This document shows positions 7,239 to 24,064 of a stretch of DNA of 26,816 nt, one piece after another. The translations under genes were made by a program, and so were the position numbers. Where the stretch lies: the IMG/VR virus record IMGVR_UViG_3300009466_000016, positions 1 through 26,816 of that record; one strand, written 5' to 3'. The DNA comes from a virus. The notes below the pieces were generated by a model, which ran no database searches, was not told the DNA's origin, and was given only the letters and a program-made list of their open reading frames with translations. Each line of letters opens with the position of its first letter. Position 1 is the first letter of the stretch.

Positions 7239-7239
7239 A

Positions 7240-7920: not shown

Positions 7921-7961
7921 TTTGCAATTTTGCACCGGACTTTGCAACTTTGCAACTTGCA
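7921..7961. repeat. TTTGCA box array in the gap after ssb
   Basis: TTTGCA occurs at 7921, 7929, 7941 and 7949, with a shortened TTGCA at 7957. Within pairs the spacing is exactly 8 bp. The same 8-bp-spaced boxes occur in the two structural-gene promoters at 18887 and 24028, but here no TATA-type -10 lies 17 bp downstream. The 119 bp up to the next gene hold no other clear signal apart from a short GGTAG-C-CTACC dyad at 7977-7987. It may be an operator cluster or an iteron-like site beside the replication genes. Confidence 0.7.
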
Positions 7962-8080
7962 CCGTCCGAGGCATTTGGTAGCCTACCCAAGCGCGGCCAC
8001 GGCAGACCGGTGGCTGTCGGAAGCTGATCCTCCCTTCGGCGGGCCGCGCATCAACATCAAAACCAAACAGGAAAGATGAC

Positions 8081-8320
8081 ATGACACAGAACATCAGAAG
8101 CCCGCAAAAAAGCCGCAAGGGTGAAGAAATTGGCGGCGGATACTTTGTTTTTCGGCGCGGCAAGGGAACCGGGCGCGTTAGGCCAAGCCCATGGCCTTTT
8201 GAGCATCCAACAATTTGCTCCGCAAAGCGCGAAGCTGACAAGCTGGCGGCAATGCAGCCGGGTTATCAATTCGACGTGCTGCAAGTTTGCTATAGCGCTT
8301 GCGCGGAGGTTGTGGAATGA
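8081..8320 (+). CDS. Small hypothetical protein, 79 aa
   Basis: The ATG at 8081 follows AACAGGAAAGATGAC, a usable ribosome site. The product is basic (MTQNIRSPQKSRKGEEIGGG), then has YFVFRRGKGTGRVRPSPWPFEHPT and a C-terminal helix with KREADKLAAMQPGYQFDVLQV. The YFVFRRGK segment followed by ADKLAAMQPGY-FDV looks like one small alpha-beta domain. It is the first gene after the TTTGCA array and is ATGA-coupled to the HD gene. Function unknown. Confidence 0.7.
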   Translation: MTQNIRSPQKSRKGEEIGGGYFVFRRGKGTGRVRPSPWPFEHPTICSAKREADKLAAMQPGYQFDVLQVCYSACAEVVE

Positions 8321-8772
8321 CCAGACACCTTGAACGCATCTTTCACGCTGGCCTCACAACCCGATGGCACACAAACCCTTGGCTTGCGCAGACATGCGAC
8401 AGGATCGACGGGCATCAAGCCCGCGTTGCCCGCATCATCCTGGCGCTTTGGCCAGATGCATCGCGCGAATTGCTCATTGCCGCGCTAACCCACGACGACG
8501 GTGAGTATATTACCGGCGACATTCCGGCGACCTTTTTCAAAACCTACAACCAGCGAGCTTATGAGGCCGCAGCATACATCACCATTTGGGGCGACAAATT
8601 CCCGCGCCTGCCCGATGGGGACGCGGATAAGCTGCACTTCGCAGACAAGCTGGACGCCTATCAATGGGCGTATCACCATGCGCCGCATATCATGGGCAAG
8701 CCTGAGTGGTGCGAGGCATGGGCGCATATTGAGGAAATGGCCGCGTGGCTTGGCGTGGAGGTGGGCGAGTGA
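8317..8772 (+). CDS. HD-domain phosphohydrolase, YfbR-like, 151 aa
   Basis: The start MTRHLERIFHAG is chosen for its ATGA overlap with the preceding gene. The HD metal site is visible: H33 (DGHQARVAR), H59-D60 with E63 (THDDGE), D68 (TGDIP) and D110 (FADKLDA). This matches YfbR-type 5'-deoxynucleotidases, which remove phosphate from deoxynucleoside monophosphates. A phage copy would alter dNMP pools for replication or help make or exclude modified nucleotides. An upstream RWHTNPW motif is also typical of phage members. It is GTGA-coupled to the helicase gene. Confidence 0.82.
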   Translation: MTRHLERIFHAGLTTRWHTNPWLAQTCDRIDGHQARVARIILALWPDASRELLIAALTHDDGEYITGDIPATFFKTYNQRAYEAAAYITIWGDKFPRLPDGDADKLHFADKLDAYQWAYHHAPHIMGKPEWCEAWAHIEEMAAWLGVEVGE

Positions 8773-10154
8773 GTTTGCAGGAGTATCGTCAATTCATCGC
8801 ATCGCGGGCAGTGGCGCAGACCATGCAGGGCTTTGCACCCAAGCCGATTAACGAAATGGCAAAGCAACACCAGATTGCAGCGTTGGACTTTTCGTTAAAC
8901 CGTGGCAAGAGCGCCGGGTTTTTGGACACCGGGCTTGGCAAGTCATTCATCGAACTGGAATGGGCGCGGCAGGTAGCGGAGGAAAGCCAAAAGCCAGTGC
9001 TAATCCTGACACCGCTGGCCGTTGCTGGTCAGATGGTCCGAGAGGGCGTCAAGTTTGGCATCGAAGCGCGGCAGATACGCGAACAGCACGAGGTTGGCGC
9101 TGGCGTCATGGTGGCGAACTACGAGCGGTTGCCAAAGCTAGACCCAGCGTCGTTTGGTGGCGTGGTCCTGGACGAGAGCAGTATTCTCAAGTCGTTTGCG
9201 GGTCGAACGCGCAATCTGTTGATGGAGGCTTTTGACGGTCTGGATTACAAACTGGCCGCGACCGCTACGCCATCGCCAAACGACCATATGGAACTTGGCA
9301 ACCATGCCGAATTTCTAGGCGTGATGCGTCAGCAGGAAATGCTGTCAAAGTGGTTTATCAACGACACCAGCACTGCATCGCAGGAATGGCGGCTGAAAGG
9401 CCACGCGCAAGAGGACTTTTGGTCTTGGGTGGCGTCGTGGTCGCGCTGCGCAACGCTGCCAAGCGATCTTGGCGGTGACGACACGGGCTATGTCTTGCCT
9501 GAGATTGATCGGCGCTTGCATCATGTTGAAGCTGACCGCATGGCGGATGCTGAGCAGGATATGCTGTTTCGCATTCCAGAACTGAGCGCGACCAGCTTCC
9601 ACAAGGAAAAGCGCCTTACAATGAAGGACCGATGCGAAAAGGCGGCGGAACTGGCGAACCACGATAGGCCGGTGACGGTCTGGTGTGAGACAAACGAGGA
9701 AAGCGCATTGCTCACTTCGATGATTGACGGGGCCGTTGAGGTTCGCGGCGATCAAAAGCCGGAGGAAAAGGAGGCGCGGCTTTTGGGCTTTGCCGATGGG
9801 CAGTACCGGGCAATCGTGACAAAGCCAAAACTTGCGGGCTTTGGGGTAAATTGGCAGCATTGCGCCCATGCTGTTTTTGCGTCAATCTCGTTCTCATACG
9901 AGCAACACTATCAGGCGGTGCGGCGGTCGCATCGCTTCGGTCAAAAGGAGCAGGTACGCAACGATATCGTGATTGCCGATACTGAGGCCGCTATCTGGCG
10001 GGCCATTCACGGCAAGGCTGAGAAGCACGAAGAAATGAAGCGCCGCATGTCAGACGCTATGCGCCGCGCACAATCTGAAACACAAACCCGCGTGAAATAT
10101 GACCGTCCTCTGGACCTCGCATTTCCGCACTGGATCAAGGAAGAAACAGCATGA
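8769..10154 (+). CDS. SNF2/SSL2-type DEAD/DEAH helicase, 461 aa
   Basis: A GTG start at 8769 is chosen because it overlaps the HD gene stop as GTGA. Superfamily 2 motifs appear in order: Q-like HQIAALDF, Walker A DTGLGKS (53-59), motif Ia LILTPLAVAGQM, Walker B variant LDESS (about 134-138, DES instead of DEAH), motif III TATPSPN (about 165-171) and C-terminal QAVRRSHRFGQ (about 382-392) with the arginine fingers. The size is near the minimal two-RecA-domain translocase. Between the lobes lies an insert with a Trp-rich WSWVASWSRC segment. It is directly followed by a DNA methyltransferase, suggesting a shared job on phage DNA. Confidence 0.9.
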   Translation: MSLQEYRQFIASRAVAQTMQGFAPKPINEMAKQHQIAALDFSLNRGKSAGFLDTGLGKSFIELEWARQVAEESQKPVLILTPLAVAGQMVREGVKFGIEARQIREQHEVGAGVMVANYERLPKLDPASFGGVVLDESSILKSFAGRTRNLLMEAFDGLDYKLAATATPSPNDHMELGNHAEFLGVMRQQEMLSKWFINDTSTASQEWRLKGHAQEDFWSWVASWSRCATLPSDLGGDDTGYVLPEIDRRLHHVEADRMADAEQDMLFRIPELSATSFHKEKRLTMKDRCEKAAELANHDRPVTVWCETNEESALLTSMIDGAVEVRGDQKPEEKEARLLGFADGQYRAIVTKPKLAGFGVNWQHCAHAVFASISFSYEQHYQAVRRSHRFGQKEQVRNDIVIADTEAAIWRAIHGKAEKHEEMKRRMSDAMRRAQSETQTRVKYDRPLDLAFPHWIKEETA

Positions 10155-11281
10155 CAAAGCAACCGGAATATCAAGGCAACGGATGGGCCATCCATAACAG
10201 CGATTGCATCGAGGGGATGCACGCTATGCCGCAAAACAGCGTTGATTGCGCGATCTTTTCCCCGCCGTTTGGCGATCTGTTTGTCTACTCAGACAGTGAG
10301 CGCGACCTTGGCAATGCTGGCGAGGGCAATGCGTTTATGGAGCAATATCGCTTCTTTGCTGAAGCGCTGACGCGCGTTCTTCGTCCTGGTCGGATTGCAT
10401 GTGTTCACTGCACTGACCTGCCCATGCGCAAGGGCAAGCACGGCGCTATCGGCTTGCAAGACTTCTCTGGCGATCTTATCCGCGCCCATAGCGCGGCGGG
10501 TTTGGTATATCATGGCCGCGCGACGATCTGGAAAGATCCGGTAGTCGAGATGCAGCGCACCAAGGCTATCGGATTGCTCTACAAGCAGATTCGCAAAGAC
10601 AGCGCCATGAACCGCGTCGGAATGCCGGATTACATGCTGTTTTTTCGCAAGGACGCACCAAACGAGCGGCCGATTGCACATGCGGCACCGGAGACCGGAA
10701 CAACGTCAAAAATCACAGGATGGTCATGTGGCGATTGCGATAATGTAGTTAGCGGGGATGCAAGGCCTGCTGAGGATCATTGCTGCGGATTTGGGTGGGA
10801 GCCAGTTTATGAGCGCGTACCAGTCGTATCCAAAGAGGCTTTGCGCATCGCAAAGGAATGGCTTGACGACCTGACACGCCAAGGGCTTTGCGCAGGAACC
10901 CCGCCGGATGAAGTGCTGGCCGAACTTATCAAGGACGCTGAGTTTGACGTGATGGAGTGGCAGCGGGTCGCAAGCCCGGTCTGGATGGATATTCAACAGG
11001 GCAACGTCCTGCGCAATTACCGTGATGCCAAAGGGGCCAATGACGAAAAGCACGTTTGCCCGCTACAGCTTGACGTGATCCGCAAGTGCCTTCGCCTATA
11101 CACCCGTCCTGGCGATGTTGTGATGGACCCGTTCAACGGCATCGGATCGACTGGATATGAGGCCGTCAAGGCGCGGCGCAAGTATATCGGTTTTGAGTTG
11201 AAGCCGGAATACGCAGCGCAGGCTAACAAGAACATGCAGGAAGCCGAACAGCGCGGCGCAGACCTCTTTGCAGCGGAGTAA
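10151..11281 (+). CDS. Beta-class DNA methyltransferase (N4-C or N6-A), 376 aa
   Basis: Motif IV is SPPF at residues 37-40 (AIFSPPFGDLF) and the AdoMet site motif I is DPFNGIGSTGYEA near residue 326, so the order IV...X-I marks the beta class. SPP(F/Y) is more usual for N4-cytosine enzymes and DPPY for N6-adenine, but this does not settle the base. A Cys-rich insert (CGDC near 194 and a CC pair about 20 residues on) may be a small zinc knuckle in the target-recognition region. It is ATGA-coupled to the helicase. No restriction endonuclease is visible, so a solitary methylase that protects phage DNA or marks it for regulation is likely. Confidence 0.9.
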   Translation: MTKQPEYQGNGWAIHNSDCIEGMHAMPQNSVDCAIFSPPFGDLFVYSDSERDLGNAGEGNAFMEQYRFFAEALTRVLRPGRIACVHCTDLPMRKGKHGAIGLQDFSGDLIRAHSAAGLVYHGRATIWKDPVVEMQRTKAIGLLYKQIRKDSAMNRVGMPDYMLFFRKDAPNERPIAHAAPETGTTSKITGWSCGDCDNVVSGDARPAEDHCCGFGWEPVYERVPVVSKEALRIAKEWLDDLTRQGLCAGTPPDEVLAELIKDAEFDVMEWQRVASPVWMDIQQGNVLRNYRDAKGANDEKHVCPLQLDVIRKCLRLYTRPGDVVMDPFNGIGSTGYEAVKARRKYIGFELKPEYAAQANKNMQEAEQRGADLFAAE

Positions 11282-11284
11282 CTC

Positions 11285-11902
11285 ATGACCATCTCATTCC
11301 TCCAAACAGCCCGCTACAACGCACAACCCCGCCTTGCCCATCTTGACGATGGGCAGGCAAAGCCAACGCCGCAATTTGACAGCTTGGACGACTTGATTGC
11401 AGCGATGCACAAGGACGCTGCAAAGACCCGCAAAATCCTTGGATCAAAGGAGCATCGGGATATTGCCCAAGACCCGACGCCGGAAGGCGATATTCTGGAC
11501 GCAATCGCGGCAAACCCAGGCATCACAGGTGCAGAAATCGCGGCGCAAGTCGGTAAATCGCGCAGCAACATCGCGGCGCGGCTTTGCAGCATGGAGGCGC
11601 GTGGCCAATGCCGGACCGAAAAGGAACTAATCGACGGGTGCTGGCGAAAGCGCTTTTACCCCGTTGCAAACCCGCCCAAGGCAAAAAACGGCAGACCGGC
11701 CAGAAAAAGCCCGGTGCGCGACAAGGTGATTGCCTTCATCCGGTCCAACCCAGGATGCACAACGCCGCAGCTGTCCGATTACATGAAGTGCAGCAACAAG
11801 ATGGGCGCGGCACACATCGCTGAAACGCGAAAGGCGGTCAAGATCACGTCAAAGCGGATCGGTGGCAATAACACGCCGATGGCGCATTGGGTGCAGGAAT
11901 GA
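11285..11902 (+). CDS. Protein with two winged-helix-like domains, 205 aa
   Basis: After an N-terminal region of about 60 residues with no recognised motif, DILDAIAANPGITGAEIAAQVGKSRSNIAARLCSMEARGQC fits a winged helix-turn-helix. A linker with NGRPARKSPVR leads to a second copy-like unit, VIAFIRSNPGCTTPQLSDYMKCSNKMGAAHI. Both share an I-NPG-TT/GAE pattern, so they may have arisen by duplication. Tandem HTH domains suggest DNA binding, and the position before the late genes makes it a candidate regulator of middle or late promoters. No sensor domain is visible. The ATG at 11285 is three bases after the methylase stop. Confidence 0.68.
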   Translation: MTISFLQTARYNAQPRLAHLDDGQAKPTPQFDSLDDLIAAMHKDAAKTRKILGSKEHRDIAQDPTPEGDILDAIAANPGITGAEIAAQVGKSRSNIAARLCSMEARGQCRTEKELIDGCWRKRFYPVANPPKAKNGRPARKSPVRDKVIAFIRSNPGCTTPQLSDYMKCSNKMGAAHIAETRKAVKITSKRIGGNNTPMAHWVQE

Positions 11903-12102
11903 CCGACCGAACAACCCGCATAATCCGCAGCGCAATTCCCGGCGAGAGCAGCAGCGCCTATGGCTATGTCGCACTGGTGACCATGCCGCGAGCGCCGTGG
12001 GAGGAACATCTAAGCAAAGACGACGCATGGCGGCAAGCCCGTGATCTTGGCGTATATGTCAGGACGGATCACAGGGAACCGAAAAGGAAGGTGACGAGAT
12101 GA
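11899..12102 (+). CDS. Small hypothetical protein, 67 aa
   Basis: The start MTDRTTRIIRSAIPGE overlaps the preceding stop (ATGA), and the stop overlaps the next start (ATGA). The protein has a central strand YGYVALVTMPRAPWEEHL, a DDAWRQARDLGVYV helix-strand, and a basic C-terminal tail (REPKRKV). It looks like a small alpha-beta domain. Coupling to both neighbours supports expression. No family recognised. Confidence 0.65.
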   Translation: MTDRTTRIIRSAIPGESSSAYGYVALVTMPRAPWEEHLSKDDAWRQARDLGVYVRTDHREPKRKVTR

Positions 12103-12242
12103 GCATTGACATCAAGGACGCCACTATCGAGGCGCTGAAAGCCGAAAACGCGCGATTGCAGCGCGAAGTGGACAGGCTTGCAGAGGCATGGCGGGCGGTC
12201 AAATCTGAAATCGACAAATTGCCGAAAGAGGTAGACACATGA
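12099..12242 (+). CDS. Short leucine-zipper-like protein, 47 aa
   Basis: A 47-codon frame is linked by ATGA to both neighbours. The peptide begins MSIDIKDATIEALKAENARL and continues with QREVDRLAEAWRAVKSEIDKL. Leu or Ile recurs at heptad positions, so a single parallel coiled coil is likely, with a short charged tail. It could be a dimerisation or anti-activator peptide; such short zippers are frequent in phage early operons but have few assigned roles. Confidence 0.65.
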   Translation: MSIDIKDATIEALKAENARLQREVDRLAEAWRAVKSEIDKLPKEVDT

Positions 12243-12580
12243 GGGCCGCAATCGTCGCCATGCTTATGGCATCGGCAGCACATGCAGAACCAGAAACGCT
12301 GACGAATGGATCATTCGGAGGCGACACGGCATCGCTGCATATGGATGGCGCTTACTCTGGCGTCTTGAGCTACCACAACAGCGAAATGCAATCGTCGGCA
12401 ACAGGCACATGGCCTATCGCAAGTGATGTCGTAACATGCAGCATCACCATAATTGCCAAGGGCGCGGCACCTGAGACCGCATCGGTAGAATGTGGCGATG
12501 GATGGATTGTCGAGCCTGAGACCGCAGACGTGCCTGATGGGCAAGGCTTTGACTTTGTGTTGATGTATCAGGCATATTGA
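12239..12580 (+). CDS. Small exported protein with Sec signal peptide, 113 aa
   Basis: The protein begins with a classic signal peptide, M-R then AAIVAMLMASAAHA, with a probable signal peptidase I cut after A-H-A at residue 16. The mature part of about 97 residues is beta-rich and acidic, with Cys67 and Cys85 placed to form a periplasmic disulfide. There is no lipobox. It is the last gene of its operon and ATGA-coupled upstream. A phage-encoded periplasmic protein could act in superinfection exclusion, in envelope change, or as a lysogenic conversion factor; the sequence does not say which. Confidence 0.7.
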   Translation: MRAAIVAMLMASAAHAEPETLTNGSFGGDTASLHMDGAYSGVLSYHNSEMQSSATGTWPIASDVVTCSITIIAKGAAPETASVECGDGWIVEPETADVPDGQGFDFVLMYQAY

Positions 12581-12712
12581 ACACGCAAGCCCAGCGGGCG
12601 GTGGCGCGGTGGTCGCAATGTCATGGAACATAGTAACCGCAAACACCCGCAGCATCGGCGCGGTCCCAAGGCGACCTTTTCCTGCCGCGTGACGGTGCAT
12701 TTTTTGAAATTA

Positions 12713-12745
12713 GGTGTTTACACACCGGACAGAATGTCCTATATA
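12713..12745 (+). promoter_or_regulatory. Sigma70-like promoter with two nested dyads
   Basis: -35 TTTACA (12717-12722), a 17-bp spacer, and -10 TATATA (12740-12745) form a strong match to the housekeeping consensus. Two dyads lie side by side over it: GGTGT-TTAC-ACACC (12713-12726) covers the -35, and GGACA-GAA-TGTCC (12727-12739) fills the rest of the spacer. It would start transcription near 12752, about 37 bases before the gene at 12789. The 132 bp between the previous gene and this site show only a weak CCG/CGG hairpin before TTTTTT (about 12683-12706). Confidence 0.75.
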
Positions 12746-12788
12746 TGGGGCATAGGGCAATGAAGCCCGCTCAATAGGAGATAGACAG

Positions 12789-13073
12789 ATGACAAACGAA
12801 ACCCTCACCAACGAACACAAGGCCGCAGTACTCAAAATTGAAGAAATGGCTTCGAAAATCATTTGCGAAATGAACCAAGACTTTCGGTTTTGTGTGGAAG
12901 CTGATGAAGCATCCATCGCGTCCGCAGCGTCTTCTGTGAAGAATCTGTTTTCAGAAACCGGCGAAATAAAAGCAAACTACGCGACTGGAAACGAAGCCTC
13001 GATTCTTGCTGCATCATTCCTGCGCCGCGCGGAAAAAGCACTTGGAAATATCAAGTCATTTGAGGGGATGTAA
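12789..13073 (+). CDS. Hypothetical helical protein, 94 aa
   Basis: The ATG at 12789 follows AATAGGAGATAGACAG, a good ribosome site, and is the first gene behind the promoter at 12713-12745. The product is mostly helical and acidic (MTNETLTNEHKAAVLKIEEM, then ASIASAASSVKNLFSETGE and LRRAEKALGNIKSFEGM), with two cysteines in the N-terminal half. It is AT-richer than the neighbouring genes. No motif, signal peptide or membrane segment is seen. As the first product of a tightly regulated promoter it may be a small host-takeover or regulatory protein; this is only inference. Confidence 0.68.
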   Translation: MTNETLTNEHKAAVLKIEEMASKIICEMNQDFRFCVEADEASIASAASSVKNLFSETGEIKANYATGNEASILAASFLRRAEKALGNIKSFEGM

Positions 13074-13074
13074 A

Positions 13075-13284
13075 ATGACAAACTACAAGATCGGCTATTA
13101 CGTTGAAACAGCAGAGGGCAAAGCCTTTGTGTGTTTAAAGGTTCTGCGTGCAGAGTTTGATACAGAAGCGGAGGCGATGGTAAGGCGCATGGGTGAAAAC
13201 GGTAAGCCGGTTGACTTGGACGGAAACCAACTGAATGGTCTTTACATCCGTCGCAGCGGCGTTGAGTGGTTTGCGGGGTATTAA
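13075..13284 (+). CDS. Small hypothetical protein, 69 aa
   Basis: The start MTNYKIGYYVETAEG is chosen because GAGGGGATGTAAA gives a ribosome site and it begins two bases after the previous stop. The product has alternating strands (KIGYYVETAEGKAFVCLKVL), a helix with FDTEAEAMVRRM, and a C-terminal LYIRRSGVEWFAGY. A single alpha-beta domain is likely. It shares an operon with the gene before it and with the XRE-like gene after it. No family recognised. Confidence 0.65.
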   Translation: MTNYKIGYYVETAEGKAFVCLKVLRAEFDTEAEAMVRRMGENGKPVDLDGNQLNGLYIRRSGVEWFAGY

Positions 13285-13291
13285 GCGCACA

Positions 13292-13480
13292 ATGACACCC
13301 GAACAATTCCGCACATCGCGCAACAACCTGGGCCTTAGTCAACGTCAGTTGGCTGAGGTCTGGTCTATGGGTGCCAATGGAGAGCGCACCATAAGGCGAT
13401 GGGAGCAGGGAGACACGCCGGTTAACCCGGTGGCGGCTTACTGTATCCAGATGATGTTAGACCAGTCTGGCAAATGTTAG
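13292..13480 (+). CDS. XRE-like helix-turn-helix regulator, 62 aa
   Basis: The start MTPEQFRTSRNNLGLSQRQL is chosen because the family begins at this motif. It fits the first helices of a Cro/C1-type fold, and RTIRRWEQGDTPVNPVAAYC the recognition helix and following turn, as in the many small phage proteins of the pattern F-xxR-LGLSQ...R-WE-G. A 7-residue SMGANGE insert lies between the HTH helices, a common variant. Two of the three ATGTTAGAC copies at 13454-13493 overlap or follow its end, so they may be its operators. It sits just before the terminase genes, so it may control late transcription. Confidence 0.75.
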   Translation: MTPEQFRTSRNNLGLSQRQLAEVWSMGANGERTIRRWEQGDTPVNPVAAYCIQMMLDQSGKC

Positions 13481-13493: not shown

Positions 13494-13523
13494 GGGCAAC
13501 CGCAATCATGGTAAGGTGAACAC

Positions 13524-15568: not shown

Positions 15569-16797
15569 TGGTCTGGCCATTCACACGCAAGATTGAAGAA
15601 AAGGCGCACCCAGCAGGCAGCGCATTGATGATCGGCGGCGGGCCAGCCTGGGCGCGTAAAGACAAGTCGCAGCAATACATCACGGAAGGCTATCAGCTAA
15701 ACGTGATCGTTTACCGCGCAGTCAACGAGATCGTGCGGGCGGCAACGTCAATCAACACCGAACTTTACAACGGCGAAAGCGCGGTGGAGCAGCACCCGGT
15801 TCTGGACCTGTTGGCGCAACCGACACCCGGCGGCACATGGCAATCGTGGCTGACCGAAATTTTGGTCAATCGGATGCTCTTGGGCGAATATGCAGCGGCA
15901 GCTGACAACCCGCGACAGCCGACCGAAATATGGCCGCTCTTGCCGCTCAATATCGCAGTCGTTCCCGGCCCGTCCGGCCTTGCGCGGCAATACATCTACG
16001 AGGTCAACCGCAAGAAAACGTACTTCGACGTGGACCAGATCACCGGGCAGTCTGACCTGCTATTCGTCAAGACGTACAACCCTGCGGACTATTGGCGCGG
16101 GCAATCCCCGCTCATGGCGGCGGCAATCGCGGGCGATACGCACAACGCCGGAATGCGCTGGAACTATTCGCTGTTGAAGAACAGCGCACGGCCTAGCGGC
16201 TTGATCCGGTTCAAGTCGGGCTATCCATCCGGCGAAATGATTAACCGGATGCGCGAGTATTTCAAAGCGCGGATGCAAGGGGCTGAGAACGCGGGTGAAA
16301 TCCCGATGCTGGCCGACGACGCGGAATGGCAGCAGCTTTCGCAATCGGCACGCGACATGGATTTCAGCAACACGATGCGCGAGACGGCGAAATACGTCGC
16401 TGCGGCGCTTGGCGTTCCCCTGCCCCTGATCGACAACGACGCCAGCACGTTCAACAACCTGGAGCAGGCCAAGGAACGGCTCTACACCGATACCGTTATA
16501 CCGATCATGCGGGATGTTCTGGCATCGCTCAACACATGGCTCTTGCCGCGCTATGGCGACGGGCTGGAATTGCGGCTTGACCTCGACACCATCCCCGCTC
16601 TTGAGGCGCTGCGGGAGCGGATGTTCCAACGGGCAGTCACCGCATACCGCGAAGGGCTATTGACGCTACAAGAGGCGCGGACGCTTATGGGATACGAACC
16701 AGAGGCCGAAGGCGACTTCAAGCCAAGCGGCGGGGGCATGTTCGACATTCCGGCAGATGACATCAAGGCGCTGGCCTACGGTCTGGACCACGGATAA
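15568..16797 (+). CDS. Portal protein, HK97 gp3-like, 409 aa
   Basis: The ATG at 15568 (MVWPFTRKIEEK) shares its A with the terL stop; a TTG one codon earlier is less likely. Family marks include NVIVYRAVNEIVRAA near the N-terminus, a YNPADYWRGQSPLMAA segment, LLKNSARPSGLIRF, and the very typical STFNNLEQAKERLYTDTV before the stem helix. Portals form a dodecamer at one capsid vertex and are the channel and docking site for the terminase. The C-terminal MGYEPEAEGD part is usual. It overlaps the MuF gene by one base. Confidence 0.94.
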   Translation: MVWPFTRKIEEKAHPAGSALMIGGGPAWARKDKSQQYITEGYQLNVIVYRAVNEIVRAATSINTELYNGESAVEQHPVLDLLAQPTPGGTWQSWLTEILVNRMLLGEYAAAADNPRQPTEIWPLLPLNIAVVPGPSGLARQYIYEVNRKKTYFDVDQITGQSDLLFVKTYNPADYWRGQSPLMAAAIAGDTHNAGMRWNYSLLKNSARPSGLIRFKSGYPSGEMINRMREYFKARMQGAENAGEIPMLADDAEWQQLSQSARDMDFSNTMRETAKYVAAALGVPLPLIDNDASTFNNLEQAKERLYTDTVIPIMRDVLASLNTWLLPRYGDGLELRLDLDTIPALEALRERMFQRAVTAYREGLLTLQEARTLMGYEPEAEGDFKPSGGGMFDIPADDIKALAYGLDHG

Positions 16798-18605
16798 TGC
16801 CGCGCAAGCCCGCATTCATCAGCCATAGCCCGGAGCGCGAGGCCGCTATCCAGTCTCGATTGCTGGACGTACTCGAAGCGCGTTTTCGGCGGCGCATTGC
16901 GGCAGTCGTGGCGGATGAAAGCCGACGCTATCTCACGGCGTATCAGGATCTCGGATACATCCCTGCACCGTCCGATGACGACTTTGCCGCGTTCCGGGCG
17001 CTGTATCAGGAGATCGGACTGACCACGGCGCGGACGTTCGGGGCGCGGGTTATCACGCAGGGCAAGTCGCTAGGCTATGACCTAGAGTGCAAGCAGGAGG
17101 GCGGCTTTGCGGCGCTGTTTCGCGCGATTGCATCACTCTGGGTAAATCAAGAGGCGATCCGGCGGCGCATCACCAACGTGACCGAGACGACGCGGGCGCG
17201 GATCGTGTCAGAAGTCGCCAATGGGCAGCGCGAGGGGCTTGGCGTTGCCGAGATTGCCCGCGACATTAACAAGCGCGTTCCATCCATATCGCGGACGCGC
17301 GGGGCGCTGATCGGCAGGACCGAAACCCACGGAGCAGCCAACTTTGCTATGCACGAGACCGCCAAGTCCACCGGGCTGGAACTGGAAAAGGAATGGGTCA
17401 GCACTGAGGACGCGCGGACCCGGCGTTTCGCGGGCAAGAACCCGGCAGAATATGACCATGTGGCGATGCACGGTCAAAAGCGCGACATGGACGAGCCTTT
17501 TGCGATGCCGTGGATAGGTGGCGATCCGATTGCAATCATGTTTCCCGGCGAGGCGGGTAAGCCCGGCGCGGCAACTATCAACTGTCGTTGTGCTGTGATC
17601 CACCGCGTTAAGGGGCTTGACGATGATGCAGCGACTAGCGTTGCAGCACAATCTGCCGTTCAAGGGCGGCCCATGACAATGGAGCAGGCAATCGCTGCAA
17701 GGCCAATTCTTTCCAGCGCTTATGCGGGTTCACTTGATGCTGCGCCAGAACTGGCGGCTCGGTTTGTGGCAAAAGCGCCTGACATAAACGGGATGATTTC
17801 AGGAAAAAAAGGCGCATACGCAACGCACGATAGAAAAATATCAATGGGTCGACACGTTAAGGGAAGCCCTGAATATGCGCGAGTTTTTCGACATGAGTTT
17901 GGGCATACGGTTGACAGAGAACTTGGCGCGGTTGATGGGAAGCTGTTTAAGTCATTTGATGCAATTCAAGACCTTGCAAAAGACACGGCAGAGCTTGAGG
18001 CAGGGCGAACCGGCATGTTTATGGGAGATAGGGATGGGTCAGCACCGTTAAGAAAACGAGTGAGCGAAAATCTGTCAAAATACTCAGATGAAAGGGTTGC
18101 GCTCATCAAGGATGCTGACGTTAAGGGGTTTGCAAATGACGCAAGAGCAGTAATTGAGAACATGACCCCACTAAAATATGACGATGTTTTGAAATTGTAC
18201 GATGTGACGGACATAAGCCCAAACGTGGCTTTTGACTTTGCGGCAGCATGGAAGCAACGAGATGTCTATGAACTTTTGCATAAAATTGGTGTTACCTTAA
18301 AATCAAGGCCAACGCATAAGAGCGCATTCGCAGGTATGCAGGACACGTTTGAAGCCGGAACGGCTGGCAAAATAAGAATATCCTTTGGGCATGGGGAAAA
18401 GTATTACAAGGACAGGCTTCGGGCTGGGCCTAAACATAAAGAAGGCCGAAGAACCTTCGGCTACGGCTCGACGGCAGAGGCGTTCGCCAACTGGTTTGAG
18501 GCGTATGCAAGCCCAAACAAAGCAGATTATCAGATGTTTCAAATGCTATGGCCGAGAACTTCGCGGTCATTTGAAAAGATGTTGGAGGCATATGCAGATG
18601 GTTGA
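16797..18605 (+). CDS. MuF head morphogenesis protein fused to HEFGH zincin-like domain, 602 aa
   Basis: Residues 1 to about 275 form a MuF / SPP1 gp7-type minor head protein: long helices, then VAEIARDINKRVPSISRTRGALIGRTETHGAAN, EKEWVSTEDARTR, and the closing ATINCRC. MuF proteins bind the portal and can enter the host with the DNA. Residues about 290-602 are a different module with H366-E-F-G-H370, the HExxH zinc site, and downstream E561 (AEAFANWFEAY) as a likely third ligand, followed by LWPRTSRSFEKML as in lethal-factor-like zincins. This half is much AT-richer: 18121-18180 has 24 of 60 G+C against 39 of 60 at 16801-16860. A virion-borne peptidase injected into the host is inferred. ATG overlaps the portal stop. 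Confidence 0.85.
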   Translation: MPRKPAFISHSPEREAAIQSRLLDVLEARFRRRIAAVVADESRRYLTAYQDLGYIPAPSDDDFAAFRALYQEIGLTTARTFGARVITQGKSLGYDLECKQEGGFAALFRAIASLWVNQEAIRRRITNVTETTRARIVSEVANGQREGLGVAEIARDINKRVPSISRTRGALIGRTETHGAANFAMHETAKSTGLELEKEWVSTEDARTRRFAGKNPAEYDHVAMHGQKRDMDEPFAMPWIGGDPIAIMFPGEAGKPGAATINCRCAVIHRVKGLDDDAATSVAAQSAVQGRPMTMEQAIAARPILSSAYAGSLDAAPELAARFVAKAPDINGMISGKKGAYATHDRKISMGRHVKGSPEYARVFRHEFGHTVDRELGAVDGKLFKSFDAIQDLAKDTAELEAGRTGMFMGDRDGSAPLRKRVSENLSKYSDERVALIKDADVKGFANDARAVIENMTPLKYDDVLKLYDVTDISPNVAFDFAAAWKQRDVYELLHKIGVTLKSRPTHKSAFAGMQDTFEAGTAGKIRISFGHGEKYYKDRLRAGPKHKEGRRTFGYGSTAEAFANWFEAYASPNKADYQMFQMLWPRTSRSFEKMLEAYADG

Positions 18606-18792: not shown

Positions 18793-18845
18793 CGACTAAG
18801 GCGACACCGCCTAACCTACCATCACAAACTGACCTCCCTAAACTA

Positions 18846-18870
18846 GGCCGCCTTCGGGCGGTCTTTTTTT
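18846..18870 (+). terminator. Rho-independent terminator with TTCG loop
   Basis: GGCCGCC (18846-18852) pairs with GGCGGTC (18857-18863) around a TTCG tetraloop, with one G-U pair, and runs into seven T residues (18864-18870). It ends the terminase-portal-MuF unit. The capsid promoter starts 16 bp further on. Confidence 0.93.
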
Positions 18871-18886
18871 GTGCCATCGCCCATAC

Positions 18887-18924
18887 TTTGCAACTTTGCA
18901 AAGGTGTGTTATACAGTTTGCAAA
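18887..18924 (+). promoter_or_regulatory. TTTGCA-type promoter for the capsid operon
   Basis: -35-like TTTGCA (18887-18892), an exact 17-bp spacer and -10 TATACA (18910-18915). A palindrome TTTGCAAA lies in the spacer (18895-18902, within the perfect 10-bp dyad CTTTGCAAAG) and another at the expected start site (18917-18924), 22 bp apart. The layout is nearly the same at 24028-24064. Transcription should start near 18922 and read the protease and capsid genes. Confidence 0.8.
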
Positions 18925-18966
18925 GGCCGTCGTGAGACGTCCGAAGCCCTTAGATGGAGCCTTTAC

Positions 18967-19677
18967 ATGCTGCGAAGCTACTCGCGCAAAGACGGCGGCG
19001 AACCGCTCGAAATCAAGCTGGCGCACGGGCTGACGATCAAGTCCGAAGGCGAGAGCGACGACTATCTGACAATCTCAGGCTATGGGTCAGTCTTTGGCAA
19101 CCGCGACAACGGCGGTGATATTGTCATGCCCGGCGCTTTCAAAGAGTGCATCGCATCGGGTCGCAAACCCAAGATGCTTTGGCAGCATGACGCAAGCCAA
19201 CCCATCGGCGTTTGGGATGAAATGTCCGAGGACGAAAACGGCCTGAGGATGAAGGGCCGAGTTTCCAAGAGGGGCAAGGGCGGCGAGGTCGCGGACCTTA
19301 TCAAGATGGGCGCTATCGAAGGGCTTTCCATTGGATACCGCACCCAAGAGTACGAAATGGACCGCGAGAGCGGCAGTCGTAAGCTGACCAAGCTGGACCT
19401 TTGGGAAACCAGCGTCGTCACGTTCCCGATGAATGAATTGGCTGGCATCTACGCGATGAAGGCCGATGAGATTACAGAGCGCGACCTTGAACGCGCTTTC
19501 AAGAATATGGGCCACAGCAACCGCATGGCAAAAGCTATGGCGTGTGGCGCATGGAGGGCAAGGACCGACGTTCTACGGGATGTAGACGGGTCCGATCCTG
19601 AGCAGGCTCAACGGGACGTTGACGAACTCAAAGCACTCTTGACCGAAACACTGTCAAAAATGGAGGCTCACACATGA
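18967..19677 (+). CDS. HK97-family prohead protease, 236 aa
   Basis: The start MLRSYSRKDGGEPLEIK is chosen because GGAG lies 8 bases upstream and the start is downstream of the promoter; an earlier ATG at 18954 is out of frame and the longer in-frame extension crosses the operators. The assemblin-like core has YLTISGYGSVFGNRDNGGD, His74 in KMLWQHDASQPIG, Ser121 in IEGLSIGY and LDLWETSVVTFPMN (Glu147). His and Ser fit the catalytic pair of HK97 gp4. It cleaves capsid delta domains and itself during maturation. The C-terminal helical tail ends in a coiled region. It is ATGA-coupled to the capsid gene. Confidence 0.92.
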   Translation: MLRSYSRKDGGEPLEIKLAHGLTIKSEGESDDYLTISGYGSVFGNRDNGGDIVMPGAFKECIASGRKPKMLWQHDASQPIGVWDEMSEDENGLRMKGRVSKRGKGGEVADLIKMGAIEGLSIGYRTQEYEMDRESGSRKLTKLDLWETSVVTFPMNELAGIYAMKADEITERDLERAFKNMGHSNRMAKAMACGAWRARTDVLRDVDGSDPEQAQRDVDELKALLTETLSKMEAHT

Positions 19678-20900
19678 GCGATCTGGCAGAGATCAAAGGG
19701 CTTGTTGAGAAGATCAACCCGACCCTGACCGAGCTGCGCGGCGAAATCGACGCGCTGAAAGCATCGGCACCAACTGACGTTGTGACCGAAGAAAAGCACC
19801 AGCGCATGGCTGACGACATCACAGCCAAGCTGGCAGACATGCAGGCGAAGCAAGCCAAGCTGGAAGCGGCGATGAACCGTCCCGGCGCTGGCGAAGGCAA
19901 GGGCATGGACGGCGAACTTGAGCAGAAGCACAAGGACGCTTTCCGTCAATACATGGCAAACGGCACCCTGCCGGACGGCTTCAAGGCCGGGTCCGAGGGC
20001 ATCGAAGTCAAGGCCATGTCTACCGACGTGAACCCGGACGGCGGCTATCTGGTGCGCCCGGAACTGTCCAACACCATCATGACGCGCGTCTTTGAGACAT
20101 CCCCGGTTCGGCAGATTGCCAACGTGGAGCGCACCGGCGCGAAGTCCATCGACATCCTGATTGACGATCAGGAAGCGGCGGCGCGTTGGGTCGGCGAAGG
20201 CGCATCGGGCGGACAGACTGACACCCCGCAACTGGCGCAGAAGGTCATCGCGGCTCACAAGATCGAAGCTGACCCGCGCATGACGACTGAGATGATCGAG
20301 GACAGCTATCTCGACGTCGAAAGCTGGCTTGCTGGCAAGGTGGCAGACAAGTTTGCCCGCACTCAGAACACCGCTTTCGTTCTGGGCGATGGCATCGGCA
20401 AGCCTCGCGGTTTCCTGACATATGCGGCGGCTGCAACGGCTGGCACGTATGAGCGCAATGCAATCACTCAGATCAACATGGGTTCGGCGGCAGCGTTGAA
20501 CGCAGATGGCCTGATTGCGGTGCAGAACGCTCTGAAAGAAGAGTACCAGGCGGGCGCGGTTTTCGGCATGAAGCGCACCACGTTTGGCGCGGCGTTGCAG
20601 CTCAAGGGCAGCGACAACTATTTCTTCAGCCCGGTCCTTCTGCGTGACGGCCAAGCGTCCATTCAGCTTCTGGGCAAGCCCGTTTCCTTTATGGACGACA
20701 TGCCCGCAGTCGCTGCAAACGCTCTGTCCATTGTCTATGCGGACTTTGGTCGTTTCTACACCGTCCTCGACCGCGTGGGCTTGCAGGTTCTGCGTGACCC
20801 GTACACGAACAAGGGCTTCGTGACCTACTACACAACCCAGCGCGTAGGCGGCGACGTGACGTCGTTCGATGCGGCTGTGATCGGAAAGGTGGCAGCATAA
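19674..20900 (+). CDS. HK97-fold major capsid protein, 408 aa
   Basis: Residues 1 to about 110 form a charged coiled coil (delta or scaffolding domain) with the probable protease cut near residue 113, before STDVNPDGGYLVRPELSNTI. The rest follows the HK97 pattern: TSPVRQIANVERTGAKSIDI, EAAARWVGEGASGGQTDTPQL, an N-arm to spine helix with DVESWLAGKVADKFARTQN, and GDGIGKPRGFLTYAA. It builds the icosahedral shell. It sits directly after the protease and is followed by a TAATG-coupled structural gene. Confidence 0.95.
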   Translation: MSDLAEIKGLVEKINPTLTELRGEIDALKASAPTDVVTEEKHQRMADDITAKLADMQAKQAKLEAAMNRPGAGEGKGMDGELEQKHKDAFRQYMANGTLPDGFKAGSEGIEVKAMSTDVNPDGGYLVRPELSNTIMTRVFETSPVRQIANVERTGAKSIDILIDDQEAAARWVGEGASGGQTDTPQLAQKVIAAHKIEADPRMTTEMIEDSYLDVESWLAGKVADKFARTQNTAFVLGDGIGKPRGFLTYAAAATAGTYERNAITQINMGSAAALNADGLIAVQNALKEEYQAGAVFGMKRTTFGAALQLKGSDNYFFSPVLLRDGQASIQLLGKPVSFMDDMPAVAANALSIVYADFGRFYTVLDRVGLQVLRDPYTNKGFVTYYTTQRVGGDVTSFDAAVIGKVAA

Positions 20901-21349
20901 TGGCACAATTTGACATGCGCAATAACGCGGAGTTTGGGCTTGCCCTCTCCGCTACCCTGAGCGGGACAACCGCAGCGGCTGGCAAGTGGATCGACATGCA
21001 GGGCTGGGAGGCGCTGACATTCAGCGTTTCCACCGGCACTGTCACCGATGCAGGCACCACATCGGGCTTTTCGTTCGAGGTGCAGGAAAGCGACACGACC
21101 GCAGCGGCAGACGCCACGGCAGTCGCAGATGCTGACCTGATCGGCACCGAGGCCGCGCTGACCGTCACAAGCGACGACGCTGACGACACGCTGGTTGGAT
21201 CAATCGGCTACGTTGGCGGCAAGCGGTACGTTCGGATCGTGGCGACCGGGACAACCGGGACCGATGCAGCCGTTACCGTCCATGCCCGCAAGGACAAAGG
21301 CGCGATCATGGCAACGGCAACAATCGACGCCGGCACAGCCGCAACCTGA
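20900..21349 (+). CDS. Beta-rich capsid-associated protein, 149 aa
   Basis: The product opens MAQFDMRNNAEFGLALSATL and is rich in Thr, Ala and Asp with alternating strands: KWIDMQGWEALTFSVSTG, GFSFEVQESDTTA, SIGYVGGKRYVRIVATGTTG. Phage proteins with a W-D-QG...F-VQESDD...GY-G-KRYVR pattern are usual beside HK97-type capsid genes and are probably head decoration or structural proteins. The ATG shares one base with the capsid stop. No catalytic motif. A hairpin follows the stop. Confidence 0.78.
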   Translation: MAQFDMRNNAEFGLALSATLSGTTAAAGKWIDMQGWEALTFSVSTGTVTDAGTTSGFSFEVQESDTTAAADATAVADADLIGTEAALTVTSDDADDTLVGSIGYVGGKRYVRIVATGTTGTDAAVTVHARKDKGAIMATATIDAGTAAT

Positions 21350-21350
21350 T

Positions 21351-21386
21351 CTTAGCAGCGGGCCGCTACGGTGGCCCGTCACTAAG
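21351..21386 (+). other. Stem-loop between capsid-region genes
   Basis: CGGGCC (21359-21364) pairs with GGCCCG (21373-21378), and outer CTTAG (21351-21355) pairs with CTAAG (21382-21386) across a small internal loop. No T-run follows, so it is not a standard terminator. It may protect the capsid mRNA 3' end or lower read-through to downstream genes. Confidence 0.65.
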
Positions 21387-21400
21387 CGCAGGGGCAGCAC

Positions 21401-21979
21401 ATGACAAACATCAACTGGTCTGCACTTGTGGACGCCACTGAGGACAACAAGCGGGCGGCTGACATGCTGATCCGCACCGATGATGGCATAGAGCGGCGCA
21501 CCGGATACGATGGCGGCTGGCTCTACCTGCACGACAGCGTACACACATCCAGCAACAAACAATCCATCACAGCCGACACGCTCACGCATGTGACGATTGA
21601 CGGCTTGGCGGATGACAGCACAACCGACTTTCGCCGGGGCATTCCTCTGGACGTTTTCGGCAACAGCAGCACAATCCAGCCATTTGCGACCGGCGAAGTC
21701 TACAACATCAACTTGACATTTCGCATTAGCAAGAGCAGCAGCACGGCGACCTTTGCTGAAATCGACGTTGGCATTGGCGCGGATTACAGTACCATGATTG
21801 CGCGGGACCGGCGGTCACTGACCAAGGGCAGCGGCATTGAGGATTTTCTATTCTTCAACGGTACGCTGTTTGTCACTGAGCCTTTCGCGCGGTACGGGGC
21901 GCGGTTCTTTATCCAATGCTCCGAAGATGTTATGCTCTGGGACAAGGCTATCATGCTGCAAAGGACGCACAGCCCATGA
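21401..21979 (+). CDS. Beta-rich structural protein of unknown role, 192 aa
   Basis: The ATG follows AGGGGCAGC. The protein has a short acidic N-terminal helix, then IRTDDGIERRTGYDGGWLYLH and a run of strands up to EDVMLWDKAIMLQRTHSP. Tyr, Phe and Thr are common, and the strand periodicity suits a jelly-roll or sandwich domain like those of head fibres, decoration knobs or receptor-contact proteins. There is no enzymatic motif. Its place between capsid and connector genes argues for a virion part. ATGA overlap with the next gene. Confidence 0.65.
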   Translation: MTNINWSALVDATEDNKRAADMLIRTDDGIERRTGYDGGWLYLHDSVHTSSNKQSITADTLTHVTIDGLADDSTTDFRRGIPLDVFGNSSTIQPFATGEVYNINLTFRISKSSSTATFAEIDVGIGADYSTMIARDRRSLTKGSGIEDFLFFNGTLFVTEPFARYGARFFIQCSEDVMLWDKAIMLQRTHSP

Positions 21980-22173
21980 CGCGGATCAAGATTTTACGCA
22001 CGTTTCAAATCAGCCTTGACGGGCTAACCGTCCAAACTTGGGGGCCGGGAACTGAGCGCGACGTTGACGACGCAACGCTTGCAATCCTGATTGGCGAGGG
22101 CGCTTGCGAGATTGTGACCAAAGCGCACCTTGCGGCACCGGAAAACAAGACGCGCAAGCGGGGCCGGAAATGA
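21976..22173 (+). CDS. Small head-region protein, 65 aa
   Basis: The start MTRIKILRTFQISLDGLTVQ is set by the ATGA overlap with the gene before. The product has VQTWGPGTERDVDDATLAILIGEGACEIV and a very basic C-terminal tail (KTRKRGRK). This resembles small phage proteins that open with K-LRSF-VS-DG and contain an L-A-GVAE-type end, found in the head-tail region with unknown function. It is ATGA-coupled to the connector gene. Confidence 0.72.
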   Translation: MTRIKILRTFQISLDGLTVQTWGPGTERDVDDATLAILIGEGACEIVTKAHLAAPENKTRKRGRK

Positions 22174-22811
22174 GGTTCAACCGCAAGTCCGTTAACGTCA
22201 CAGCCTCGGATGACGATCCGGCCATTTCACTGGCGGCGATCAAGCCGTTCCTGCGGGTAGATGGTGATGTAGATGACGACATCATCACTGCCTACATTGC
22301 CACGGCGACGGAGGCGGTTAAGCAATACCTGCGGCGGGCGCTGTTGACCGAGACCTTCGTATTCAAGGCGGACGGCTTCACAGATGCTTACGGCGACGAC
22401 CGCCTTTTGTCGCTTGGGCCGGGCGTCCACACGGCATCCAGGCCCTATGTCCTGGGCGGCGGCGAAACGCTGGACCTGCCCTTTGCACCGGTGGCGTCAG
22501 TCACTAGCGTTGTGACCTATGACCGCGACAATATCAGCAGCACATTCAGCGCATCGCGCTATGGCGTGGATACAGAAAGTGGACGCATCTACCTGCAAGA
22601 AGGCGAGACGTGGCCTAGCAATCTGCGGGCGCAAGACGCGGTGCAAGTGACCTACGTCGCAGGCTATGGCTCAGGCAACATCCCCGCGCCTATCCTTGAG
22701 GCGATCCGGCTCTATGTGTCGTCGCTCTATGATGGGACATGCGCGGGCATCGACATGCAGATGAAGGCGCTGTTGGCTCCTTATCGGCGCATGGATGAAT
22801 TGGCATGGTGA
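22170..22811 (+). CDS. Head-tail connector, gp6 / phiE125 gp8-like, 213 aa
   Basis: The start MRFNRKSVNVTASDDDP is set by ATGA coupling. The helical segment ISLAAIKPFLRVDGDVDDDIITAYIATATEAVKQYLRRAL matches the gp6-type connector fold (a DxxIxxLIxAA-like helix). Then comes a beta region with LDLPFAPVASVTSVVTYD and YGVDTESGRIYL, as in the longer phiE125 gp8 variant, and a final helical LLAPYRRM. It forms a ring below the portal. Overlap of 7 bp with the next gene. Confidence 0.85.
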   Translation: MRFNRKSVNVTASDDDPAISLAAIKPFLRVDGDVDDDIITAYIATATEAVKQYLRRALLTETFVFKADGFTDAYGDDRLLSLGPGVHTASRPYVLGGGETLDLPFAPVASVTSVVTYDRDNISSTFSASRYGVDTESGRIYLQEGETWPSNLRAQDAVQVTYVAGYGSGNIPAPILEAIRLYVSSLYDGTCAGIDMQMKALLAPYRRMDELAW

Positions 22812-23161
22812 ATTGCTGCGCCACATCCAAATACAACGCGCGGCAGCTACGCGAGGCCGTGACGTTCCAGCGCGTGACCAACACGCAGGACGATTACGGC
22901 GCACGGGTGCAGACGTGGGCGGCGATCACGGACGCACCAACGCGAGCGATGGTTAAGCCAATGTCAGGCGGTGAGCGTTACGCATCGGCGCGGACTGAGG
23001 CCACATCAACGCATCGGATCGTGTGCAGGTACTTTGCCGACCTGACCGAAAAAGACCGCGTGGTGATCCGGGGCCGGGCGTACAACATCCGCTTCATTGC
23101 GAATGTGGACTTTGACGACCAATGGCTTGAAATCAGTGCAGAACTTGGGGCGGCGGTATGA
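22805..23161 (+). CDS. Head-tail adaptor / head closure protein, 118 aa
   Basis: The protein carries REAVTFQRVTNTQDDYGARVQTWAAI, then MSGGERYASARTEATSTHRIVCRYF, and KDRVVIRGRAYNIRFIANVDFDDQWLEISAE. This is the usual order of Phage_H_T_join proteins (SPP1 gp16 / HK97 connector class): a beta barrel that plugs the connector and joins the tail. An N-terminal Cys-Cys pair is unusual. It starts 7 bp inside the connector gene and is ATGA-coupled downstream. Confidence 0.87.
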   Translation: MVNCCATSKYNARQLREAVTFQRVTNTQDDYGARVQTWAAITDAPTRAMVKPMSGGERYASARTEATSTHRIVCRYFADLTEKDRVVIRGRAYNIRFIANVDFDDQWLEISAELGAAV

Positions 23162-23598
23162 GTAAAATATCCGTTGAGCTGGTTGGCAAAAAAAACATTG
23201 ACCGCGCCTTGGCGCAGGCGGCGGCGGATGTCAAAAGCGCCGTTGAAACCGCAGTCGTCGGCACGGCTCTTGAGTTGCGCGGCAATATCGTAACCAGCAT
23301 CGCGCGGGGGCCAGCATCGGGCCGGACGTATCAGAAGTACAACCCGCGCCGGGTCCACACGGCATCCGCACCGGGACAACCGCCAATGACTGACACCGGG
23401 CGGCTGGCGAACAACATCTATTTTGAGCGACTTGGGGCCACAACGGCGGCGGTGGGCAGCACATTGGCGTATGCGGTTTACCTTGAGTACGGAACGCCAA
23501 CAATCGCGGCGCGTCCGTTTTTCCGTCCGGCAGTCGAAGAAATCCGGCCTAAGTTTCTCAGGCGACTTGAGAAAGCCCTCGGAGACACATTGAGATGA
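23158..23598 (+). CDS. HK97 gp10-like tail-joining protein, 146 aa
   Basis: The N-terminal helix (NIDRALAQAAADVKSAVETAVVGTALELRGNIV) is followed by ASAPGQPPMTDTGRLANNIYF and AYAVYLEYGTPTIAARPFFRPAVEE, the hallmark of HK97 gp10-type proteins (GxPPxxxTGxLxxSI...YxxxxEfGT...RPFxxPA). Members act in head-tail joining or tail completion. It is ATGA-coupled on both sides. Confidence 0.92.
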   Translation: MSKISVELVGKKNIDRALAQAAADVKSAVETAVVGTALELRGNIVTSIARGPASGRTYQKYNPRRVHTASAPGQPPMTDTGRLANNIYFERLGATTAAVGSTLAYAVYLEYGTPTIAARPFFRPAVEEIRPKFLRRLEKALGDTLR

Positions 23599-24026
23599 AC
23601 TTTGCAGCCGTATCACAGGCCGTGCGGGCGCGACTGGCGGGCGATGCAACGCTGTCGGCGCTGGTGACGTATGTCGGATACGACAAGCCCCAAGACACGC
23701 AGCCGGAAAGCAGCATCCCGTTCCCTTACACCATCATCGAGGACGTGGCTGGAACGGCGTGGGACACCAAAACCAGCGAAGGCGGGAACCAGCTTATTCG
23801 AGTGACGACCTACGCGCGGCCGACCGACACGCGGAGCGCGGTGGACATCGCAGACGCGGCGGCTCAGGCGGCTTATGACGCGCTGCATAGGTTCGATCTG
23901 GTCATAGCGGGGGCGCACACTGTGAACTGTCTATTCGAGGAAAGCCCCGGCAACATTCCAGATCCCGATGGGTTTACTCGATACAGGCCGATGACATTCC
24001 GCATCGTCTATGAGGCGGGCGAGTAA
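23595..24026 (+). CDS. DUF3168 tail terminator / completion protein, 143 aa
   Basis: The helix NFAAVSQAVRARLAGDATLSALV leads to PFPYTIIEDV, GNQLIRVTTYARPTDTRSAVDIADAAAQAAYDALHR and FRIVYEAGE. This matches DUF3168 proteins, which cap the tail tube and set its junction with the head. The last gene of the capsid operon; its stop is two bases before the tail promoter motif. Confidence 0.88.
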   Translation: MNFAAVSQAVRARLAGDATLSALVTYVGYDKPQDTQPESSIPFPYTIIEDVAGTAWDTKTSEGGNQLIRVTTYARPTDTRSAVDIADAAAQAAYDALHRFDLVIAGAHTVNCLFEESPGNIPDPDGFTRYRPMTFRIVYEAGE

Positions 24027-24027
24027 C

Positions 24028-24064
24028 TTTGCAGTTTTGCAAAGGCGTGGTATAAGTTTGCAAA
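24028..24064 (+). promoter_or_regulatory. TTTGCA-type promoter for the tail operon
   Basis: -35-like TTTGCA (24028-24033), a 17-bp spacer and -10 TATAAG (24051-24056, five of six to consensus). Palindromes TTTGCAAA lie at 24036-24043 and 24057-24064, 21 bp apart. It is a close copy of the site at 18887-18924, including the 8-bp offset between first and second box. Transcription should begin near 24063, just ahead of the tail tube gene. Confidence 0.82.

Follow-up and report, generated by a model that had tools for sequence, protein, structure and literature searches.

Sites for the CII protein of phage lambda consist of the repeat TTGC-N6-TTGC and are found at P_RE, P_I and P_aQ. The Q protein of phage 21 recognizes direct repeats of the 6-bp sequence TGAGCA, with contacts at positions -21 and -13 and thus an offset of 8 bp (PMC6606751), and GafZ binds between the -35 and -10 elements of the promoter of the gene transfer agent (GTA) (PMC11150451). 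The motif of the host factor PhaR is YGCRNYGCR (PMC12542648). Here, we describe a set of TTTGCA boxes in the virus record IMGVR_UViG_3300009466_000016 of IMG/VR, a siphovirus-like genome fragment that was analyzed as a whole (26,816 bases; referred to as the window). The boxes occupy three intergenic sites, of which two are predicted late promoters ahead of the head protease and capsid genes and of the tail tube gene, and the third is an array following the gene for the single-stranded DNA-binding protein (SSB). A literature search returned nothing on a TTTGCA box.

The initial annotation had suggested that the three sites form a regulon in which the boxes keep an exact 8-bp offset, and this turned out to be real. 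The exact tandem pair TTTGCA-N2-TTTGCA (TTTGCANNTTTGCA) occurs four times in the window, at positions 7921, 7941, 18887 and 24028, always on the + strand and always inside the three sites, compared to a mean of 0.037 and a maximum of 1 in 300 dinucleotide shuffles. Neither the other strand of the window nor the pattern read backward gave a single match. As the window shows no enrichment of TTTGCA by itself (34 seen, 28.7 expected), the signal resides in the spacing of the boxes and not in the box itself. A fuller form of the box is CTTTGCAA. A search of IMG/VR with the pair followed by AA, 8-20 bp and a further box identified 57 stretches, compared to 3 for the reversed control. The late promoter is present in 31 of the 57 stretches; the other 26 are of lower GC content (46% vs 56%) and, being more AT-rich, may be unrelated.

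The two late promoters and the genes next to them are arranged as follows:

18887-18892, + strand: late promoter 1, box 1 (TTTGCA), at the -35 position
18895-18900, + strand: late promoter 1, box 2 (TTTGCA; here TTTGCAAA), in the spacer between -35 and -10
18907-18915, + strand: late promoter 1, extended -10 TGT-TATACA, predicted start near 18922; nearly all relatives likewise have the TG at +20 from the pair
18917-18924, - strand: late promoter 1, box 3 (TTTGCAAA; the conserved form is the inverted TGCAAA)
18970-19677, + strand: head maturation protease (phrog_80, 2.4e-55), fed by late promoter 1
19674-20900, + strand: major capsid protein (phrog_10, 3.9e-68), fed by late promoter 1
24028-24033, + strand: late promoter 2, box 1
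24036-24041, + strand: late promoter 2, box 2 (here TTTGCAAA)
24048-24056, + strand: late promoter 2, extended -10 TGG-TATAAG, predicted start near 24063
24057-24064, - strand: late promoter 2, box 3 (TTTGCAAA, inverted)
24085-24483, + strand: major tail (tube) protein (phrog_1407, 1.8e-22), the first gene downstream of late promoter 2

As originally described, the two promoters are nearly identical: the gap between box 1 and the -10 element (TATACA and TATAAG, respectively) is 17 bp in both, and the copies of TTTGCAAA lie 22 bp (18895/18917) and 21 bp (24036/24057) apart. Their assignment to the capsid (head protease) and tail tube operons is also supported, and the same junctions recur in relatives. 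A generic sigma-70 scan missed these promoters since it demands T as the last base.

The late promoter recurs ahead of the head protease and the tail tube gene even at protein identities of 28-39%. Among the relatives G002, G003, G005, G007, G008 and G009, which are records of 36-39 kb with terminal overlaps in several of them, G002 encodes a tube protein 28% and a protease 39% identical to those of the window and has kept both promoter junctions, and with a tube protein identity of 28% G002 and G003 both retain the boxes, their spacing and the extended -10. Loss of the box spacing in relatives had been named as the observation that would speak against the regulon; the spacing is kept. In a gene-anchored scan, which accepted pairs with up to 2 mismatches followed by TG.TA 20 or 21 bp after the pair start, the promoter was recognized ahead of the protease in 36 of 78 distinct regions, the failures being mostly distant proteases, and ahead of the tube gene in 13 of 45. 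The distance from pair to TG is 20 bp at 47 of 51 non-redundant sites. Position frequencies were derived from 47 non-redundant promoters, in which the T-G is invariant (100%) by selection. Box 1 is preceded by C in 94% of these, and the positions T-T-T-G-C-A are conserved at 91-100% in box 1 and at 87-100% in box 2. The -10 element starts with TAT (extended form TGNTAT), the T at the third base being present in 79%. The two bases following box 2 are A in 51% and 49% only; that box 2 is palindromic in the window is thus a local feature. Hence, the palindromes pointed out in the initial annotation do exist in the window; in the relatives that of box 2 is not maintained and box 3 is conserved as the inverted TGCAAA.

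This downstream box is present in 44 of the 47 non-redundant sites; four sites exhibit TGCAAA exclusively in this orientation and none exclusively in the opposite one. Its start lies 11-13 bp after the TG in 36 sites and 19-21 bp after it in 16 counts, which include sites with a box at either position, and not a single start is located at 14-18 bp within this set. A second tabulation based on a different selection yielded the identical two clusters. The step between the two positions amounts to 8-10 bp, or about one helical turn, which suggests that a protein bound to box 3 would have to face the same way as the protein on boxes 1 and 2. As the positions of box 3 are helically phased, the bound proteins may contact each other on one face of the DNA across the -10 element. 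Box 1 is missing in G009, L115 and L116, where TTGTCG is located instead 17 bp ahead of TATAAC, and boxes 2 and 3 are kept. This replacement suggests that box 1 may serve at the same time as the -35 element of an ordinary promoter of the host type. Boxes 2 and 3 may be operators, by which a regulator would take its grip on the -10.

The first site was originally taken to comprise five copies of the box and to lack a -10 element, and to be possibly a decoy or iteron array. It is composed of the following elements:

7921-7961, + strand: TTTGCA array with exact boxes at 7921, 7929, 7941 and 7949, and CTTGCA at 7956-7961
7957-7983, + strand: predicted middle promoter, TTGCAC (7957-7962), 15 bp, TAGCCT (7978-7983), with TG at 7975-7976

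Accordingly, four copies are exact and the fifth, CTTGCA, is degenerate. The exact boxes form two 8-bp pairs that are 20 bp apart (spacing 8-12-8), and CTTGCA comes 7 bp after the box at 7949. In the window the array begins 2 bases past the SSB stop codon, and an identical 8-12-8 array was identified in 15 IMG/VR stretches, mostly a few bases past the stop codon of an SSB gene. The SSBs beside these arrays are 27-61% identical to that of the window, and the gene 3' of the array differs among the phages, being g12-like or coding for a helicase or a winged-helix protein. Of 11 distinct arrays, 9 have TG.TA at a distance of 54-55 bp from their start; the array spans about -70 to -37 of a predicted promoter with a weak extended -10 (TAGCCT). 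Because most relatives have this extended -10, at 7975-7983 in the window, at a constant distance, the first site is, as read from the sequence, a promoter-proximal array rather than a decoy or an iteron array.

Two further elements flank the capsid promoter:

18845-18870, + strand: intrinsic terminator, 8-bp stem and TTTTTT, directly ahead of the capsid promoter
18925-18942, + strand: leader RNA hairpin GGCCGUC-GUGA-GACGUCC, directly past box 3, where the capsid operon mRNA is predicted to begin

A hairpin with a T run, similar to the terminator, is present in the relatives L098, L099 and L101. Given the strength of the terminator in front of the capsid promoter, upstream transcription probably ends there. 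The leader hairpin covaries, its pairing being maintained in 78 of 78 cells, with two-sided changes in 3 of 6 pairs (13 distinct sequences), and shifting the hairpin partner lowers the pairing to at most 63%. The hairpin occurs once per phage where present and is followed on its 3' side by a conserved CCCTTAGATGGAG, in the window and at the same place in relatives. Its folding energy alone is unremarkable (z = -1.2), and it does not correspond to any Rfam family at the Rfam thresholds.

The box-bearing lineage consists of lytic, water-borne phages. The 13 records searched yielded no integrase, and no strict late promoter was found in prophages. A scan for the strict late promoter among 84,980 bacterial and archaeal genomes gave two hits, both on phage contigs (L192 and L193) that are binned in one Verrucomicrobiales metagenome-assembled genome (bin_ak_oxhcr2.025, coverage about 135-139), a protease or tube gene adjoining each. 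These contigs probably represent a close relative phage that was misbinned or was infecting. Plasmids showed partial matches only. The GapR-like protein, which among the control genomes matches Caulobacter alone, and the Sulfitobacter phage phiGT1 (MT584811) point to an alphaproteobacterial host of the window phage. phiGT1 is a cultured podovirus with an unrelated head and array-type sites: TTTGCA pairs are located at 34379 and 35446, both intergenic and each with a third box 13-14 bp off. The site at 35446 is followed by TGTATAAG, a ribosome site and gene 57 (DUF7303). This DUF7303 gene directly adjoins the box array of phiGT1 on its 3' side, and a protein of the DUF7303 type is also encoded in G003, upstream of the terminase (L195, 35536-35772; L175, 5189-5410). 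No pair at up to one mismatch is present in the temperate Sulfitobacter phages pCB2047-A, pCB2047-C and NYA-2014a, nor in the cultured relatives Pan4, S-LBS1, Mae-JY02, Paracoccus phage Shpa and EBPR podovirus 2.

We tentatively favor, at somewhat less than even confidence, a reading in which one regulator would activate transcription from the array and occlude the late promoters. TTTGCA would be the half-site of a single sequence-specific transcription regulator, and the working unit would be the tandem pair with its 8-bp offset. At the array, two units would be placed directly upstream of the weak extended -10, and, since -70 to -37 is the usual place of an activator, the regulator might activate a middle operon comprising the helicase, the methyltransferase and the winged-helix protein and leading on toward the terminase. 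At the late promoters, one unit would cover the -35 and the spacer, and on the same face of the helix the inverted box would cover the start point, so that the regulator would bridge the strong extended -10 and exclude RNA polymerase; that boxes 2 and 3 persist where box 1 is lost argues for such occlusion. As rising genome copies titrate the regulator, or once it is removed, head and tail genes would fire together. The regulator is probably phage-encoded, the leading candidate being the winged-helix protein of the array-driven operon.

Two candidate regulators had been proposed in the initial annotation:

11285-11902, + strand: tandem winged-helix protein (HTH_24, 9.6e-9; phrog_1687, 4e-11), candidate regulator
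13292-13480, + strand: XRE-like protein (phrog_14076, 8.5e-9), weaker candidate

The XRE-like protein was rejected, as it has no match in G005 and G006, which bear sites. The structure model of the winged-helix protein (pLDDT 73) shows two winged-helix domains and resembles the MarR type and ScpB, and does not indicate its specificity. The winged-helix gene is located 3' of the array in the window and in L198, L199, L202, L204, L205, L207, L208 and L210, in four cases as the first gene, and winged-helix-like genes with weak or no profile match were recognized by eye between the early genes and the terminase in G009 (two domains), G002/G003 (69 aa), G007 (93 aa), L197 and L201. Its place in the array-driven operon makes the winged-helix protein the better of the two proposed regulators, as an unproven candidate. 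Other proteins were also rejected as binders: the phage DnaA domain IV protein occurs only in the window, phiGT1 and the box-less G013, GapR is absent in the box-bearing G001-G003, G005 and G009, tblastn found no methyltransferase in the box-bearing G003 and G008, and the PhaR/AniA motif YGCRNYGCR is unlike the boxes. Among DnaA domain IV, GapR, phrog_1687, phrog_142 and XRE, no DNA-binding protein is common to all box-bearing records; the Ren-like phrog_142 is likewise not present in all of them.

Several observations weigh against a single phage-encoded activator and repressor. Both activities are inferred from the position of the boxes alone, and the near-constant spacing from pair to -10 would also fit an activator touching the polymerase. 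The array is absent in G002, G003, G007, G008 and G009, which have nevertheless kept the late promoters. By profile search, the winged-helix family was not found in the box-bearing G007, G008 and phiGT1. In addition, winged-helix relatives are only 18-47% identical to the window protein whereas the boxes hardly vary, which disfavors a simple one-to-one match between this protein and the boxes.

Alternatively, the boxes might serve to load an activator or antiterminator acting on the polymerase, such as Q of lambda or phage 21, AlpA or GafZ, or T4 MotA at -30, and late transcription would then need the factor. We consider this doubtful, albeit well worth weighing. The direct repeats of phage 21 Q share the 8-bp offset of TTTGCA-N2-TTTGCA (PMC6606751), and binding between -35 and -10 has a precedent in GafZ at the GTA promoter (PMC11150451); the -35 match of the late promoters is poor, and the 20 bp between pair and TG at nearly all non-redundant sites would suit such a factor. 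However, the Q families PF06530 and PF03589 are present in none of the 13 box-bearing records, the pair is positioned about 10 bp further upstream than the phage 21 site, over the -35, and a box over the start point such as box 3 is foreign to Q sites. Past the start, no -10-like pause element was recognized by eye, no systematic scan having been made.

It might also be hypothesized that a host transcription factor binds the boxes, and that the phages thereby read the state of the host. Such a situation is known for CtrA sites in alphaproteobacterial phages (PMC9437464), and the array-type sites of the Sulfitobacter podovirus phiGT1 are in line with it, as is the finding that DnaA domain IV, GapR and the winged-helix family each occur only in some of the box-bearing phages, none being common to all. 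On the other hand, no bacterial genome of the collection has the strict late promoter, the three temperate phages of another Sulfitobacter strain are devoid of the pair at up to one mismatch, and the sole host motif compared, that of PhaR (YGCRNYGCR, PMC12542648), does not match. On balance we regard a host factor as unlikely, but it retains real weight since the winged-helix sequence varies and the boxes do not.

The near-invariant operators without an evident conserved binder pose a puzzle. It might be speculated, with rather low confidence, that they represent a new class of late-gene switch, in which one factor would activate the middle promoter through the tandem unit and would hold or load polymerase through the unit and the phased inverted box, the factor being swapped among unrelated proteins or supplied by the host and the grammar remaining fixed.

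That the first site is a replication origin with iterons next to SSB and has no role in transcription, the late sites sharing merely a popular -35, appears very improbable. The array does consist of regular repeats beside replication genes, and the phage has a gene for a DnaA domain IV protein, but this protein is absent in the array-bearing G005 and G006, and a fixed extended -10 follows the array. Furthermore, array and -10 are constant where the downstream gene changes (helicase, winged-helix or others), and in the late promoters boxes 2 and 3 show equal conservation, although neither is a -35 element. Chance, or common descent with no function behind it, is scarcely credible: single TTTGCA boxes indeed show no enrichment in the window, but the grammar is kept at 28-39% protein identity, 57 stretches stand against 3 for the reversed control and 0.037 pairs are expected, and chance as the source of the box spacing is already refuted.

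The genes near the three sites were named via Pfam and PHROGs and comprise those for RecT, SSB, a GapR-like protein, DnaA domain IV, a helicase-like protein, an N6/N4 methylase, the small and large terminase subunits, portal, MuF, head protease, HK97-type capsid and tail tube. The phage-coded DnaA domain IV protein is located beside the GapR-like protein (window 6912-7482), directly ahead of SSB and the array. The window helicase and methylase (8745-11281) are 81% and 68% identical, respectively, to their counterparts in Pseudanabaena phage Pan4, which is without boxes and whose record mentions GTA-like head-tail genes. The MuF protein (16797-18605) has 602 aa compared to about 244-283 aa in relatives, and its extra C-terminal part contains an HEFGH motif, possibly that of a metallopeptidase.

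How virulent phages of probable alphaproteobacteria time their gene expression is for the most part undescribed, and the regulon offers precise, testable start points and operators, with phiGT1 as a cultured phage for the array-type sites. As in CtrA-site clusters, a box regulon is situated in the promoters of probable alphaproteobacterial phages; the box is a different one, and no host regulator is known for TTTGCA. In the motif of PhaR/AniA the TGCA cores are 1 bp apart, compared to 4 bp here. Similar to the lambda CII sites, TTGC direct repeats are found around the -35, but as TTGC-N4-TTGC, with an offset of 8 instead of 10 bp, and in lytic phages. T4 middle promoters also have a TTTGC- box near -30 in place of a -35, often with TGn. 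The MotA box, WWWTGCTTtA, is however single and located 12 +/- 1 bp from the -10, whereas here a tandem TTTGCA is combined with a downstream inverted box and the base past TTTGC is A (96% in box 1, 87% in box 2), not T. With the GafZ element of Caulobacter the late sites share a regulatory site within the core promoter of a head-tail cluster; there, one promoter has a palindrome rich in GC, whereas here three promoters of lytic phages have boxes rich in AT. Finally, the late sites differ from lambdoid Q sites by the TTTGCA sequence, by a pair spanning -35 to -22, by a third, inverted box at the start, by the upstream array and by the absence of a Q family from the 13 records searched, but they resemble the Q-binding element of phage 21 in that a 6-bp direct repeat with an 8-bp offset is located within the late promoter of the structural genes.

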